Shown in pieces: positions 3,805 through 43,240 of a DNA stretch of 64,000 nt. Position numbers and translations under genes: made by a program. Below the pieces are notes generated by a model, which did no database searches, had not been told where the DNA came from, and saw only the letters and a program-made list of their open reading frames with translations. Position 1 is the first letter of the stretch. Each line of letters begins with the position of its first letter. Source of the DNA: Magnetococcales bacterium (GTDB taxonomy: Bacteria > Pseudomonadota > Magnetococcia > Magnetococcales > UBA8363); contig PEAK01000003.1 in NCBI GenBank assembly GCA_002753515.1, forward strand, positions 62,001 to 126,000, given 5' to 3'.

Positions 3805-5595
3805 TTATTGACCGCAAGAGCCGATACACATATTGGGAAAATCGATGGTACTGACACCCAGATCGGTGATCTCAATTTCCAATCTGCTCAAGGCGGACAT
3901 GTTCTTGTTGCCAAAATTAACCTTGATGGTACCGGTACTGCCGGAAGATTTGGTAATGGTGACGGTGTAACCGCTACAGGAGGTTGTCCCGGCACTGGTA
4001 AAGTCAAACTGGCAGTCGATGGAGCCGAATCCCCCTTCGGGGCGGATCCTGATCACGTTTTGGCCGCTCAAGTTGGCTGACGCGGTAAAGTTGGTGAAGA
4101 AGTAGGTCGGATTGCTGGCTGTCAGTGAAAGACAGGGATTGGAAGACCGGGCCCTTTGTCCTTTCGCAAATCGCGAAGCGCCTGTGACAGAGTTCATGAT
4201 CGAGGGCCGATCATCATAGCAATTATAATTGCTGCCAGAGAAGAGCGTTCCCGCAGGGGCTACCGAGGTCGTGGTTGTGGACACGGAAGTCGTTGTTGTC
4301 GGTACGGATGTTGTAGTTGTGGACACAGAGGTCGTTGTTGTTGGCACGGAAGTCGTGGTTGTGGACACGGAAGTCGTTGTAGTCGGCACGGAAGTCGTTG
4401 TTGTGGACACGGAAGTCGTAGTTGTCGGCACGGAAGTCGTTGTTGTGGACACGGAAGTTGTTGTAGTCGGTACGGAAGTCGTGGTTGTGGACACGGAAGT
4501 CGTTGTAGTCGGTACGGAAGTCGTTGTAGTGGACACGGAAGTCGTTGTAGTCGGTACGGAAGTCGTGGTTGTAGACACGGAAGTCGTTGTTGTTGGTGCT
4601 GAAGTCGTACTTGTGGACACGGATGTCGTTGACGTCGAAACCGAAGTCGTTGTAGTCGGTACGGAAGTCGTTGTAGTCGTCGTGGTGGGCACGGAAGTCG
4701 TTGTTGTAGACACCGATGTCGTTGTAGTTGGTGCCGAGGTTGTGGTCGTTGATACGGATGTCGTGGTGGTAACCGATGTTGTGGTGGATGATGTTGACGT
4801 TGTGCTGGTTGAAGGCGCACAGGCCGTCATTGCCATGCCTGCTTGCATCAACTTGGATTTCAACAACATGGGAGAGGCATACAGGACGACATCATCGCCA
4901 GCGCCATGGAGATAGGTCCTGGCCTTGTCGGGATCCGGGTCTTGGGGGTTGGCATTTTCAAGCTCATCACCACTGACGGCAGTTCGGGTGACATAAGCCG
5001 TTGATCCGACAGGGGTTGTCTCGATATGTCCCCTGCCGTTTTTGCCATGGGATACGACGACAAACGGCAGATTATCGGCCAACGTTTTGCCATCCTTGCG
5101 GACTCTCAAAGTGCTGGTGGCATTGCAGGGTATGATTTGGCTGCTGTCGCTGTAGTCTGGGGCGACGTGGTAGGAATAATAGTTGAGCCAATTATCGACG
5201 GGTTTCAAGCTCAGATTTTGCCACGGTACCACCCCGAACGGATTGCGACATGCCGTTCCATTTCTGTCTTCCACGCCATCAAAGCTGGTCATGGCGGTTC
5301 CACCCCCGTCCACGCCAACATCGGGACAGGGGAGGTGGCCATTGGCAACGGCGAATCCGATCAGGGCTTCCTGGATTTTTTCCATGGAATCCTCGGCTTT
5401 GATCCGTTGCTGTTTTTCGCGAACTCCAGAGAAGGTGGCAACGCCGCCACCGACAACGGCGGCGAGGACGACCATGGCCACAGCCATTTCGACCAATGAG
5501 AATCCCGATGCCACGCGACCACCCGACAGTTTTTCAGGTCCGGGTGACCGATGGGGGGCAAAGCTGTGGGAATCTCGATGGGTCATGTTTTCCAT
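3805..5595 (-). CDS. Pilin-like protein with long Thr/Ser stalk and C-terminal head
   Basis: This 596-residue protein has a prepilin peptidase site at residues 31-36 (G before FSLVE) and a following hydrophobic helix. Residues 75-255 form a minor-pilin domain with the marks ANGHLPCPD and GVVPWQNL, shared with three other genes here. Residues 261 to about 447 are a Thr-rich tract built from TTTTSVS and TTTTSVP units. The last 150 residues form a cysteine-bearing beta-rich domain. The layout suggests a tip or minor pilin that displays a head at the end of a rigid, possibly glycosylated stalk. Function is inferred; the pilin signature is clear. Confidence 0.8.
   Translation of the reverse strand: MENMTHRDSHSFAPHRSPGPEKLSGGRVASGFSLVEMAVAMVVLAAVVGGGVATFSGVREKQQRIKAEDSMEKIQEALIGFAVANGHLPCPDVGVDGGGTAMTSFDGVEDRNGTACRNPFGVVPWQNLSLKPVDNWLNYYSYHVAPDYSDSSQIIPCNATSTLRVRKDGKTLADNLPFVVVSHGKNGRGHIETTPVGSTAYVTRTAVSGDELENANPQDPDPDKARTYLHGAGDDVVLYASPMLLKSKLMQAGMAMTACAPSTSTTSTSSTTTSVTTTTSVSTTTTSAPTTTTSVSTTTTSVPTTTTTTTSVPTTTTSVSTSTTSVSTSTTSAPTTTTSVSTTTTSVPTTTTSVSTTTTSVPTTTTSVSTTTTSVPTTTTSVSTTTTSVPTTTTSVSTTTTSVPTTTTSVSTTTTSVPTTTTSVSTTTTSVPTTTTSVSTTTTSVAPAGTLFSGSNYNCYDDRPSIMNSVTGASRFAKGQRARSSNPCLSLTASNPTYFFTNFTASANLSGQNVIRIRPEGGFGSIDCQFDFTSAGTTSCSGYTVTITKSSGSTGTIKVNFGNKNMSALSRLEIEITDLGVSTIDFPNMCIGSCGQ
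4255..4815 (-). repeat. Thr/Ser-stalk minisatellite in pilin gene
   Basis: A near-perfect tandem array with a 42-bp period (two 21-bp half units) encodes alternating TTTTSVS and TTTTSVP. Some units deviate in the 5' third of the array. Such arrays expand and contract by slippage or recombination, so stalk length may vary between strains. Confidence 0.9.
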
Positions 5596-39423: not shown

Positions 39424-39810
39424 GTGAAGCAGAGAAAATTAAGAGTCATCGTTGAGGGCACTCAATACGAAGTGCTGGTTGAGGATATCACGGAAGGTGG
39501 TGTATCCCATGAGCCGGTGCGACCGGTTGCCCATGCCCAAGCGCCTGTGGCGGCCCCTCCACCTCCCCCCAGCAGGCCCGCTGCCGGTCCCGTGGGTCAG
39601 GAAGGTCGGGTTGCACCCCTTGCCGGAATCGTGACCACGGTCTACGTCAAGGAAGGATCCACTGTTAATGCGGGCGACAAGGTGATTGAAATCGAGGCCA
39701 TGAAGCAAAAGAATGATGTGGTCGCGCATCGGGCGGGGACGGTGAGGGATATCAAGGTCAAGTCTGGCGATGCCGTGGAGTCGGGCCAGCTCCTTATGAA
39801 TATCTCCTGA
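39424..39810 (+). CDS. Biotin carboxyl carrier subunit
   Basis: GTG start at 39424 with GAGG seven bases upstream (128 residues). A proline/alanine-rich linker (APPPPPSRPAAGP) leads to a C-terminal biotinyl domain: VAPLAGIVTTVYVKEGSTVNAGD and IEIEAMKQKNDV. The lysine of EAMK is the biotin site; the usual next Met is Gln here. It would shuttle carboxyl groups between the carboxyltransferase and its partner. Confidence 0.85.
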   Translation: MKQRKLRVIVEGTQYEVLVEDITEGGVSHEPVRPVAHAQAPVAAPPPPPSRPAAGPVGQEGRVAPLAGIVTTVYVKEGSTVNAGDKVIEIEAMKQKNDVVAHRAGTVRDIKVKSGDAVESGQLLMNIS

Positions 39811-39833
39811 TACTCAGGACTGTTTATAGACAT

Positions 39834-39868
39834 GAGATGCCTGCTGGATTGTGTCCGGCGGGCATCTC
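39834..39868 (+). terminator. Strong hairpin downstream of the carboxylase genes
   Basis: A 14-bp stem (39834-39847 pairing with 39855-39868, two G-T pairs) closes a 7-base loop, attgtgt, starting 24 bases after the biotin carrier stop. No T-tract follows, so it may protect the mRNA 3' end rather than terminate on its own. Confidence 0.55.
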
Positions 39869-40090
39869 GTTGCCTGAATGATATGTTTGTCCTGCGTGCA
39901 GAACGCCAGATTTTGATAGATCATAACCAGCTGTCAGATCAGTTGGACCGTTATTACTTTATAAGGTGTTTTTTCTCCGCAACGAGCCACTCCTGGTTGC
40001 ATGGGCTGCTGGCTGTTTGTTGATCGGTCTTGTTTTTTGCCTCAGACTTGTTTCACGTGTCCCCGGGTGGCTAGAGTTTGTTCTTGCAGG

Positions 40091-41320
40091 TCAAGTCATG
40101 ACCGCTATTCCAGATAATTGGCGATAAAGTGACCGCATGTGTTCCAGGCGTTCTTCCTGGGATGGCAGTTGCAAGAAAGACCCGTGGTTTTGCCCGTTGC
40201 GTCGGGTGGCCTGCATGAGAGCCCGGGCCAGGGCGAGTACATCTCTGGGTGGCAGCACGGTCAGGTGGGGGGCGTCTGGCGCTAGAATTTCCCGCCATTC
40301 CGGAATGGCAGTGGTTATCACGGGACATCCCACACTATCGGCCTCCAGCAACAAACTGGGAAACAACGTTGTCGTCATGGCTGCGCGATAGGGCAATACC
40401 AGGACATCCAATCGTTCCAGCAGACGTTGCGTCGGTACCAACCCCAGGATGGCTACCTTGTCGCCCATATGACAATGCTGGATTGCCTTTCGTATCCGGG
40501 TTGCGTTGCCATCGCCAGAGAGGGCCAGAAGCAGACGCAGATGGCTGGTCTGATTGGCGGCCCTGGCAAATGCGGCCAGCAGATCATCGACCCCTTTCAC
40601 GGCAAAACAATGTCCGATATAGCCTACCAACGTGATGGTTTCGTTGTCAAAGTCAACGGGCAGTTCCAGTTGGGGGGCATGGTCTTCGGGGGCGAAAAGG
40701 GTCAGGTTGGTGGCTGTTGATACTTTGTCATATCCCAGGGATTTCAGGGCTGTTGCTGCATGGGAACCAATGGCCAGGTGGGAAGCTGCCAGCCATCTTC
40801 CGGCCAGTGACCAAGAGTGATGGTTGATGATCATCCGTGGGGCCAGCATACCTGGATCATCCCAAAAGGCTTGCCGGTGGGCTTGATCCCAACGGGTAAC
40901 CGCCCCTTCGTATTGGATGAGGATGCGTTCCTGAGGGAAGTCAACCAACCAGACCAGCCAACTGAAGGCGGGCGAGGGGAGAACCAGGTGTAAAACGGAA
41001 TCGGGTCTTTGCATCTTGAGGCGGATGTTGCGCAACAAATGCCATGTTTCTTTGAGTCGGACCCAAAATGGCAAGGTGATGTAGGCATCCAAGGCTGTCT
41101 TATCGGCTGAGGTAACGCCGATGGGCAACAACAGGGTCGCCTCCACTCCCTTTTGCTTCAGCAGGGTGATGAGGGCATTGATAGCCGTGACCTGGCCACC
41201 CATACGCAAATTAAGGACTATAAAGACGATGGCCGGGTCGTAGTTTTCACGGGTCAAATTGGATATCTTTCCTGGGCAGTGTTTCGGAGGGTGTTCGACA
41301 ATGTTCCGAACGCTTTCCAA
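40091..41320 (-). CDS. Glycosyltransferase, GT4-like
   Basis: Start is uncertain: TTG at 41320 (AGGG five bases upstream) gives 409 residues, and TTG at 41257 is an alternative closer to the first beta strand. The sequence has the GT-B plan: N-terminal IVFIVLNLRMGGQVTAINAL (glycine-rich loop), a linker, and a C-terminal domain with TLVGYIGHCFAVKGVDDLLAAF, LLLALSGDGNATRI and FPSLLLEADSVGCPVITTA, the E-x7-E-like donor-binding region. It probably adds a sugar to a cell-surface glycan. A structured RNA with a terminator immediately precedes it. Confidence 0.8.
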   Translation of the reverse strand: MESVRNIVEHPPKHCPGKISNLTRENYDPAIVFIVLNLRMGGQVTAINALITLLKQKGVEATLLLPIGVTSADKTALDAYITLPFWVRLKETWHLLRNIRLKMQRPDSVLHLVLPSPAFSWLVWLVDFPQERILIQYEGAVTRWDQAHRQAFWDDPGMLAPRMIINHHSWSLAGRWLAASHLAIGSHAATALKSLGYDKVSTATNLTLFAPEDHAPQLELPVDFDNETITLVGYIGHCFAVKGVDDLLAAFARAANQTSHLRLLLALSGDGNATRIRKAIQHCHMGDKVAILGLVPTQRLLERLDVLVLPYRAAMTTTLFPSLLLEADSVGCPVITTAIPEWREILAPDAPHLTVLPPRDVLALARALMQATRRNGQNHGSFLQLPSQEERLEHMRSLYRQLSGIAVMT

Positions 41321-41333
41321 TTTTACCCTGGAT

Positions 41334-41388
41334 AAAAAAAAAGCCAAGGGTCGGTAGAGGGGGGGGGAGAGGGGAACCGACCCTTGGC
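41334..41388 (-). terminator. Intrinsic terminator upstream of the glycosyltransferase
   Basis: On the minus strand a perfect 13-bp stem (GCCAAGGGTCGGT pairing with its complement, outer limits 41343-41388) is followed by nine T residues (41342-41334). It ends only about 14 bases before the TTG start at 41320, so it could end an independent RNA or attenuate the glycosyltransferase mRNA. Confidence 0.85.
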
Positions 41389-41612
41389 CATAGGTGTGTA
41401 AACACAACCTATGTCAAAAGCTCACAAGGAGCTTGGACCAGGGACAGATGAAGGGGGGTACGCCTATCCCTGGTAAGGGCTAAGGAGTAATCCTTCCGCC
41501 CTTGCATTAGCCGAGGAATGGCTCCGTCGGCTAAGTTGATGTCCTGCTAGAACCTGAAGGCCGGTACGTGTTGCCTTGGCCTTGATCTCTATATATCAAG
41601 GAGTGTACCAAG
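41334..41612 (-). ncRNA. Multi-hairpin structured RNA, unknown family
   Basis: Leftward from about 41612 there are seven successive inverted repeats: CCTTGAT/ATCAAGG, GCCGA/TCGGC, AAGGGC/GCCCTT with inner AAGGA/TCCTT, ACCAGGGA/TCCCTGGT, AAGCTC/GAGCTT, CATAGGT/ACCTATG, and the terminator stem. There is no coding frame of note. A TTGATC-17-TATTCA pair just upstream could be its promoter. Such density of stems with a terminal U-tract marks a non-coding RNA or a leader. I could not match it to 6S, tmRNA, RNase P, SRP or common riboswitches. Confidence 0.6.
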
Positions 41613-41914
41613 ATTGAATAATCAATAATAACAATTGGATCAATCCTATCTCGTCAGGAGTGGGCATGGGGGTGTTAAAAAATTTTCCACATTCATGAAA
41701 GAATTACCGGTTCGTTGGTTGATAAATGTATAAAAATTTTATATTAATCAATATATTATAAAAAAAACGTAAAAAAAATTTCCATAGACGAGGGGGGGTG
41801 TGCAAAATTAGACAAATATCGTGAAGAGGAGCGGGCAATGACTGGGGAGATCAGGGGTGCTGTTAAGATAACGAGTTGTAAAAGCGAAATTTTATGAGAT
41901 AGCATTGACGATAT
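41613..41914. other. AT-rich gene-free stretch
   Basis: About 300 bp between the TAXI gene and the structured RNA, with an AT-rich block (41715-41785). I see no gene here. It probably contains the promoter for the leftward RNA. Confidence 0.4.
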
Positions 41915-43174
41915 TTATCGCATCTTGTTTGTTGCTGATGATCTTTCCGAGGCGACCAGCCAATGGATGGCACCACCAGCACTGGTGATCGCCGCCTGGG
42001 GATGGGAGAGTACCAAGCCGTGAATCGGATCGGTTGGATGAACATATCCGACTTCTACGTTTGCCAGGTGCAGGGGGGCGGCGGGATCGAGTTGCCAGTG
42101 GGATGTTGGCTCACCTTCCAGGACGGGGACGGATTTCAGCAATTCTTTGGGATCGGGTCGGCCTGCCTTGATTTCGAAGAGGCGCATCTCTTGGAAGTAT
42201 TTGAAGGCACCAATATGCAGGGGGGCGACCAATCCCTCAAAAAGGGATCGGGGATCCGGAACCTTGAAAGATGGGTCCAACTTGCTGAAGCGATAGAGCT
42301 TTTCCACAATGCTCCGGGTGATTTGATAGACGGCATCTTCGTTCATGTCGGAGGTGGTCACCAGGGTCGCCTGGACGGCGATGGAGGGAATATTGTCGGT
42401 AATTTTGGGGTATAACCCGGCAGGAATGCTGGTTTTGACAAAATAGGGGTGGGTAGCGACTAGGCGCTCCTGGCAGTCACTGGGGAGTGGCAGGATTCGG
42501 GTATCGGCAGTCGTCAGGGCGTTCCAAAGGTTTTCGTTGGGATGTCCGATGACGACGAAATAGGCATCAATGGATTTGCTGCGCAGGGCGGATACCGCTT
42601 TTTCGGGCGTCAGTTCCTGACTTTCATCCAATAGTTTTGGTTTCAAGTTACAGGTGGCGAGGATATCGTTGGCGGTTCTCCTGCTGCCGGATCCTTTGGA
42701 GCCAATACTGATGGTGCGTCCTTGTAACTCATTGATATTTTTTATGTCAGAACGAACGACGATGGTCACCACTTCGCTATAAAGGGCGATGACGGAGCGT
42801 AAGTGGTTCAGTTTTGTGGTAAAGGGGGAGGTGCCGTTCCAGGCATTGGCGACGACGTCGGATTGGGCGATACCCAGTTGAATGGTGCCATTTTGTAAGG
42901 ATTGAATATTATCCACGGAACCTTCGGTGGGTTCCACGGCACAGTGGGGGTTGTTGGCAGCGGTGGTATGGACGTGAAGATTGACTTCACGGCAGATGGC
43001 CCCGGCGGCAGGGAAATAGAGACCCGAAACGCTGCCGGAGCCGATAATCATGGGGTTGGTTTTTGGGGAGGCGATTTCTTCTGCCCGAGACGAAGTGGAG
43101 AAGGCCAGGGGAATGGCCAGGAACAAGGCTTGAATGAGACGAGCGGATCGGCGCGGCAAAAGGTTGATTCCCAT
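41915..43174 (-). CDS. TAXI family TRAP-type solute-binding protein
   Basis: Starts at the ATG at 43174 with GGGGAG 8 bases upstream (419 residues). A signal peptide (LIQALFLAIPLAFSTSSRAEE) is followed by the TAXI pattern: IIGSGSVSGLYFPAAGAICREVN, LQNGTIQLGIAQSDVVANAW and ISIGSKGSGSRRTANDIL. Such periplasmic proteins feed substrates (often glutamate or other organic acids) to TRAP permeases. No permease gene is adjacent, so it may be an orphan sensor or serve a distant transporter. A 100-bp copy of its 3' region is at 49414-49513. Confidence 0.85.
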   Translation of the reverse strand: MGINLLPRRSARLIQALFLAIPLAFSTSSRAEEIASPKTNPMIIGSGSVSGLYFPAAGAICREVNLHVHTTAANNPHCAVEPTEGSVDNIQSLQNGTIQLGIAQSDVVANAWNGTSPFTTKLNHLRSVIALYSEVVTIVVRSDIKNINELQGRTISIGSKGSGSRRTANDILATCNLKPKLLDESQELTPEKAVSALRSKSIDAYFVVIGHPNENLWNALTTADTRILPLPSDCQERLVATHPYFVKTSIPAGLYPKITDNIPSIAVQATLVTTSDMNEDAVYQITRSIVEKLYRFSKLDPSFKVPDPRSLFEGLVAPLHIGAFKYFQEMRLFEIKAGRPDPKELLKSVPVLEGEPTSHWQLDPAAPLHLANVEVGYVHPTDPIHGLVLSHPQAAITSAGGAIHWLVASERSSATNKMR

Positions 43175-43240
43175 AAAACTCTCCCCGTGGTTTGCGACTG
43201 TAATCCCGGTCTGGCGCCCGCCAAGCCGGTACCTCAAAGA

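Follow-up and report, generated by a model that had tools for sequence, protein, structure and literature searches.

A predicted small RNA family with C-rich hairpin loops and a putative sigma-54-type promoter in Magnetococcales

In the window, i.e. the whole stretch of 64,000 nucleotides analysed here, the minus strand upstream of a glycosyltransferase gene carries a string of inverted repeats that no annotated gene accounts for. Is this string part of the neighbouring gene, or is it an RNA in its own right, and if so, how might it be controlled and what could it do? The sequence-only reading had offered two answers, a free RNA of about 280 nt or a leader acting in cis to attenuate the glycosyltransferase gene. 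Its central observation, a perfect 13-bp stem followed by T9, was confirmed: the stem (41343-41355/41376-41388) is 100% complementary and the T9 run at 41342-41334 follows it directly on the minus strand. The minus-strand fold of 41325-41660 reaches -128.7 kcal/mol, compared with -93.9 +/- 5.4 kcal/mol for shuffled sequences (z -6.46); the plus strand over the hairpin region gives a z of -4.2. The run of seven consecutive inverted repeats is thus real, except that the 5'-most repeat, CCTTGATATATAGAGATCAAGG, belongs to a promoter. As it overlaps the -12 part of a sigma-54-type site, the RNA should start near 41584, not 41612, and would be about 251 nt long rather than 280. The locus is made up of the following elements:

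41334-41584, minus strand: predicted small RNA of about 251 nt, from the fold and the homologues, its start placed by promoter spacing
41557-41583, minus strand: 5' hairpin 1, from the fold, variable among genomes
41507-41534, minus strand: hairpin 2, TTAGCCGA...TCGGCTAA, from the fold
41475-41503, minus strand: hairpin 3, AAGGGC...GCCCTT, with compensatory changes within the genus
41437-41474, minus strand: C-loop hairpin A, CCAGGGAUAGGcguaCCCCCCuucaucUGUCCCUGG, loop invariant in 7 genomes, stem covarying
41418-41434, minus strand: short hairpin AAGCTC/GAGCTT, from the fold, 86% of cells paired in the genus
41389-41413, minus strand: hairpin CATAGGTTGTG...CACACCTATG, 100% of genus cells paired, nearly invariant
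41334-41388, minus strand: C-loop hairpin B and intrinsic terminator (13-bp perfect stem, C/U-rich loop, U9), three compensatory pairs; the terminator hairpin itself spans 41388-41343
40091-41257, minus strand: downstream glycosyltransferase (family 1; Pfam Glyco_trans_1_4), likely start TTG 41257

Several members of the genus have a hairpin of different sequence at the position of hairpin 2. It had also been held that no coding frame explains the hairpins. This is borne out by the homologues: although the longest glycosyltransferase ORF (TTG 41407) stays open through the terminator, loop lengths differ from one homologue to the next, which argues against coding across the terminator, and protein coding at the hairpins was rejected on this ground. 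All in all, we are nearly certain that the hairpin string represents a stand-alone structured RNA.

The RNA belongs to no family that we could name. An Rfam 15 search, which had been proposed as a check, returned nothing at or above the curated gathering threshold at the locus and no match at seven homologous loci either; identity with a known RNA family was therefore rejected. The Qrr model (RF00378), whose gathering score is 50, reached 18.8 bits at the locus (E 0.96), so that membership in this family does not apply. ARAGORN detected no tRNA or tmRNA at the locus, and only a tRNA-Leu elsewhere. Neither Rfam nor a literature search yielded a regulatory RNA family from Magnetococcales, and we know of none that has been described. 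Judged from sequence alone, the locus would represent a new family in this order, without a name so far.

A DNA search recovered the RNA from six further members of the genus, with 84-96% identity over at least the 3' core. A 29-base match at a contig edge in G003, with a C-rich stretch, CCCGACCCTTGGCC and TTTT, reads as a truncated terminator half. For more distant members we used two covariance models, R1 for the RNA core and R2, with 39 positions, for a single C-loop hairpin; R2 matches C-loop hairpin A at 41438-41473 and the terminator hairpin at 41344-41387. R1 added the genus g7 (family f7) and G015 (family f9), and R2 added G046 and G019. The copies in G032 and G028, together with another C-loop RNA of G015, came to light on inspection downstream of the regulator gene described below. 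Homologues are thus present in 21 of the 48 Magnetococcales genomes, G003 being partial, and 20 copies are intact. In a 299-genome sample of the phylum, R2 matched only the same 18 Magnetococcales and none outside the order. Among the genomes searched, the family is restricted to the magnetotactic cocci of the order Magnetococcales. With the models, each genome that carries the RNA yields a single locus, and the window locus is the only copy in its genome. In G015 a second locus (L047:8311-8538 on G015:C84) has two C-loop hairpins between hemerythrin-like and PMSR (msrA-type) genes, with no recognisable sigma-54 promoter.

Compensatory base changes among homologues had been named beforehand as a test of the structure, and the structure passed it in the genus, core and module alignments. 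Within the genus, 11 of 51 pairs show a compensatory change. In the core alignment 97% of cells pair and six pairs are compensatory, a covariation score that none of 500 shuffles reached. When 26 hairpin modules from three families were aligned, 93% of cells paired and 6 of 11 pairs were compensatory, counts that are inflated by relatedness, module duplication included; sliding the partner destroys the signal. By sequence comparison, a stronger point than these counts is that the C run is kept on unrelated stems. The f9 stems (GCCUGGCGGC...GCUGCCAGGU, CCAGAGGCUUAGCGGC...GCUGCUAAGCCUCUGG) are unlike those of f1 and g7, and the C run in the loop is retained. In the window, the two C-rich loops read CCCCCC and CCCCUCUCCCCCCCCC. 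The number of C-loop hairpins per member ranges from 1 to about 7, with two in the window's genus as well as in G032 and G028, 3-4 in most g7 members and at least five in G023 and G039. In g7 the hairpin module is duplicated in tandem, and in a few g7 loops the C runs are shorter or interrupted. The C-rich loop looks like the exposed element common to the family. One member, L127 (G028:C324), has an unusually long 5' part, in the roughly 460 nt that follow the promoter at 4045 (minus strand); it contains imperfect direct repeats (GAATTAAGCAGTATCGTAGTTGAAG...) ahead of the C-loop hairpins.

Upstream of the predicted start, three conserved elements could account for the expression of the RNA:

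41595-41610, minus strand: sigma-54-type promoter TGGTACACTCCTTGAT (-24 GG, -12 GA); TGG-N9-TG with the same spacing in 20/20 intact copies
41668-41690, minus strand: proximal enhancer-like site GTGGAAAATTTTTTAACACCCCC, at about -100; similar sites near -100 in G001, G006 and G007
41797-41813, minus strand: distal enhancer-like site GTCTAATTTTGCACACC, at about -220; motif shared by the seven genus copies, where it lies at -218 to -224

The GG and the 10-base spacing typical of sigma-54 promoters occur in all 20 copies, and the -12 dinucleotide is GA (GG in G019); the sigma-54 consensus has GC at this position. Elsewhere the promoter takes the form TGGCGCGCATCTTGAT in g7, TGGTACGATTCCTGAT in f9 and TGGCACGAATCCTGGA in G019. 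The pattern TGGY-N8-TGA occurs once per 300 bases in 11 representatives, where 0.005-0.06 would be expected; because the 300-base stretches were centred on the site, this figure expresses rarity and is not the outcome of an unbiased search. Most intact copies have enhancer-like sites of this kind around -110 and -210, A/T-rich and with CAC or CACC at their end. Those of the proximal type lie at -111 to -116 in g7, G028, G015 and G019, and counterparts of the distal one between about -200 and -235 in g7, G028 and G019. In G032 the pattern used revealed no enhancer-like site, though similar sequences (GGAAAAATATTTTCC) are visible. The window genome possesses rpoN. A sigma-70-like site (TGGAAA-18-TATAAT, 41784-41755) was dropped as the main promoter, since the sigma-54-type site is present in every intact copy, but it may be used too. 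Control by sigma-54 is well supported at the sequence level.

A candidate for the cognate activator emerged from the gene neighbourhood. In g7 the RNA is preceded by a response regulator gene, whose product combines receiver, sigma-54 activation and Fis-type HTH domains; this gene in turn follows one for a PAS/GAF histidine kinase. In 11 genomes from three families, such a pair of histidine kinase and NtrC-type regulator genes stands directly before the RNA (f7: G013, G033, G027, G038, G039, G023 and G046; f9: G032, G028 and G015; f13: G019). In G044 it lies about 3.8 kb downstream of the regulator gene, in G035 elsewhere, and in the window's genus it is not adjacent. As bit score alone did not separate the regulator orthologues, we built trees. 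They group the RNA-adjacent regulators with seven from the window's genus, including G000:C115:43680-45056, the one clade regulator of the window genome, encoded on another contig than the RNA. All 20 members of this clade come from RNA-bearing genomes, that of the window included. When the best matches of most RNA-lacking genomes were added, still none fell inside the clade (support 94/89; the row for G045 was disregarded owing to a wrong reading frame). In G004, a MAG that is 78% complete, the RNA is present and a clade regulator was not found. Regulators of this general kind are common, and so it is linkage and co-occurrence, not homology alone, that carry the connection. Probably, the adjacent sensor-regulator pair switches the RNA on, and combined sigma-54/two-component control appears very likely from the arrangement of these sequences. 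Genes for NMT1-like binding proteins were seen at two places: one at 41915-43237 of the window, upstream of the RNA, and another (L116:9067-10236) adjoining the candidate histidine kinase gene on C115.

From a functional perspective, we consider it slightly better than even, at roughly 55%, that the RNA is a trans-acting small RNA of about 251 nt that is switched by the two-component system and pairs through its C-rich loops with G-rich ribosome-binding sites. The histidine kinase would control the NtrC-type response regulator (C115:43680-45056 in the window genome), which would drive sigma-54 RNA polymerase from TGGTACACTCCTTGAT when bound to the A/T-rich pair of sites at about -220 and -100. 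Transcription would stop at the C-loop terminator, leaving an RNA with two stable hairpins (1-7 in relatives) on which C-rich sequence is predicted to be exposed. We infer that the loops serve as redundant seeds for G-rich ribosome-binding sites, so that translation of a set of mRNAs would be blocked as long as the two-component system is active. By analogy with known small RNAs, this pairing with start sites is about as probable as the reading as a whole. Possible targets are present: most Magnetococcales genomes contain more G7-N4-10-ATG than its reversed control, in many of them about 2-7 times as much (177 to 71 in G000; 212 to 38 in G006), each long G run entering the count repeatedly. 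The same holds for the RNA-lacking G022 (185 to 26), and the RNA-bearing G032 has no excess (15 to 13). G-rich start sites, being equally common in RNA-lacking genomes, were thus discarded as a signature of RNA-bearing ones; a pool of targets exists with or without the RNA, and nothing ties this pool to it. The complement of the first loop revealed no evident shared target in 8 genomes (about 41 non-self matches versus about a dozen for the reversed sequence).

Other explanations have to be weighed against this reading. The idea of a leader attenuating the glycosyltransferase gene draws on the position of the terminator just upstream of this gene on the same strand, an arrangement that is met in the window and G001 only. 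The distance of about 14 bases given earlier relies on a TTG near 41319, and G001 has an indel just past it; from the sequence context, the TTG at 41257 after GGAAAG is the likelier start. Above all, the RNA is conserved without the glycosyltransferase gene. Downstream of it, G002, G004, G005 and G006 have a convergent OAD beta gene, g7 has a convergent rnhB, and f9/f13 have a gene for a CheB-like methylesterase (L125:1666-2835, L126:4179-5231, L128:2198-3250), with a receiver domain in G019. Since the downstream genes differ among the families and are often convergent, the RNA behaves as an independent unit, and the leader is rejected on synteny as highly improbable. The same neighbourhoods bear on the idea that the RNA acts on the gene converging with it (that of the OAD beta subunit in the genus) as a regulated antisense or 3' overlap partner. 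RNA and oadB do converge in four genus genomes, but in other families the neighbouring genes, convergent or co-directional, are different ones, and oadB is not adjacent to the RNA in the window, so that we hold this option to be equally improbable. In other genus genomes the OAD beta gene follows a biotin carrier gene; the window and G001 lack this adjacency, and at 39810-41407 the window has sugar-related genes in its place. A repeat element, mobile or palindromic, that serves no regulatory function would agree with the tandem duplication of the hairpin module in g7. Such elements, however, would be dispersed and lack a conserved promoter and regulator linkage, whereas the models find a single locus per genome and a second C-loop locus is known in G015 only; together with the covariation, this largely refutes the idea, which we rate lowest of all. 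With its own promoter, its own terminator and a conservation independent of its neighbours, the status of a free small RNA is well supported by the sequence comparisons, as the first of the two original options had it.

The main rival is a protein sponge in the manner of CsrB or CrcZ, which would share the sigma-54 control and use its repeated hairpins to titrate an RNA-binding protein, either CsrA via GGA motifs in the 5' part or a poly(C)-binding protein via the loops. The 5' parts contain 34 ANGGA motifs where 12.9 are expected (at most 23 in 300 shuffles), CsrA is encoded in 46 of 48 genomes, and the hairpin number varies, as it does in sponges. On the other hand, ANGGA is absent in G032, G028, G015, G004, G005 and G007, what is conserved is the C run and not GGA, and we know of no poly(C)-binding protein in Magnetococcales. 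We thus consider a sponge unlikely, at odds of about one in four. In the 5' parts of L028, L032 and L125 there are GGA-loop hairpins (GAGAC-AAGGAT-GTCTC, TTGCAA-AAGGATTC-TTGCAA), found in g7 and f13, that resemble CsrA sites. A more speculative proposal, which we regard as more doubtful still than the sponge, is a dual-function family. In part of the order, CsrA would be bound by 5' GGA hairpins; the C-run hairpins, variable in number, would titrate either a poly(C)-binding protein or a large set of G-rich mRNAs simultaneously, and their number would set the dose under one two-component system. For the trans-acting RNA that we favour, the promoter is at hand together with candidate enhancer sites, a candidate for the regulator and an exposed motif that is conserved, and so its control and targets are directly testable.

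Vibrio Qrr small RNAs are sigma-54-driven and controlled by the NtrC-type regulator LuxO. This type of control is probable for the present family as well; the score of RF00378 stays below threshold. Unlike CsrB/RsmZ with their many GGA loops, its members have 0-5 ANGGA per 5' part, none in f9, and their repeated hairpins have C-rich loops. In Pseudomonadaceae, CrcZ/CrcY are small RNAs encoded downstream of the gene for the NtrC-type CbrB, which activates their sigma-54 promoter; CrcZ sequesters Hfq-Crc (PMC6292655). This arrangement, a small RNA after an NtrC-type regulator and with a sigma-54-type promoter, recurs in the 11 genomes mentioned above, not in the window's genus. However, the repeated C-run hairpin loop is a different motif from the CA motifs of CrcZ, and CbrB and the RNA-linked regulator are related by domain make-up only. 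LhrC1-5 of Listeria have redundant UCCC sites in a loop, a single strand and the terminator loop, which bind a G-rich sequence before the start codon, and are under two-component control by LisRK (PMC4132741). Redundant C-rich sites are common to both, and two-component control is probable here too, but LhrC1-5 are multicopy, Gram-positive, without sigma-54 and of different structure. The C/U-rich terminator loop has a parallel in RepG of Helicobacter pylori, where such a loop base-pairs with a homopolymeric stretch of G in the leader of an mRNA (PMC8295292); RepG, however, has a single C/U loop, a known target and no tandem C-loop hairpins. CcsR1-4 of Rhodobacter, encoded with CcaF1, are likewise tandem related RNAs in one locus, yet they share a transcript with a DUF1127 gene, driven by an RpoHI/RpoHII promoter, and RNase E processes them (PMC10253847). 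A resemblance in form exists to NfeR1/alpha-r14 of alphaproteobacteria, in which three hairpins with differing stems expose the same C-rich seed CCUCCUCCC, the C-rich loops pair with G-rich translation starts, and a sigma-70 promoter works with LsrB and is repressed by NtrC (PMC10746234). Repeated C-rich loops on differing stems are a shared feature, and NtrC-type regulation is probable here as well. In contrast, the C run is uninterrupted here, CCUCCUCCC does not occur in the window loops, the promoter is of the sigma-54 type, and there is no Rfam match. By analogy, the control would resemble that of CbrAB-CrcZ and the loop logic that of NfeR1, while the defining motifs differ. The family resembles NfeR1 in form, yet motif and promoter differ, which hints that redundant C-rich loops and NtrC-type control may have come together in small RNAs on more than one occasion.
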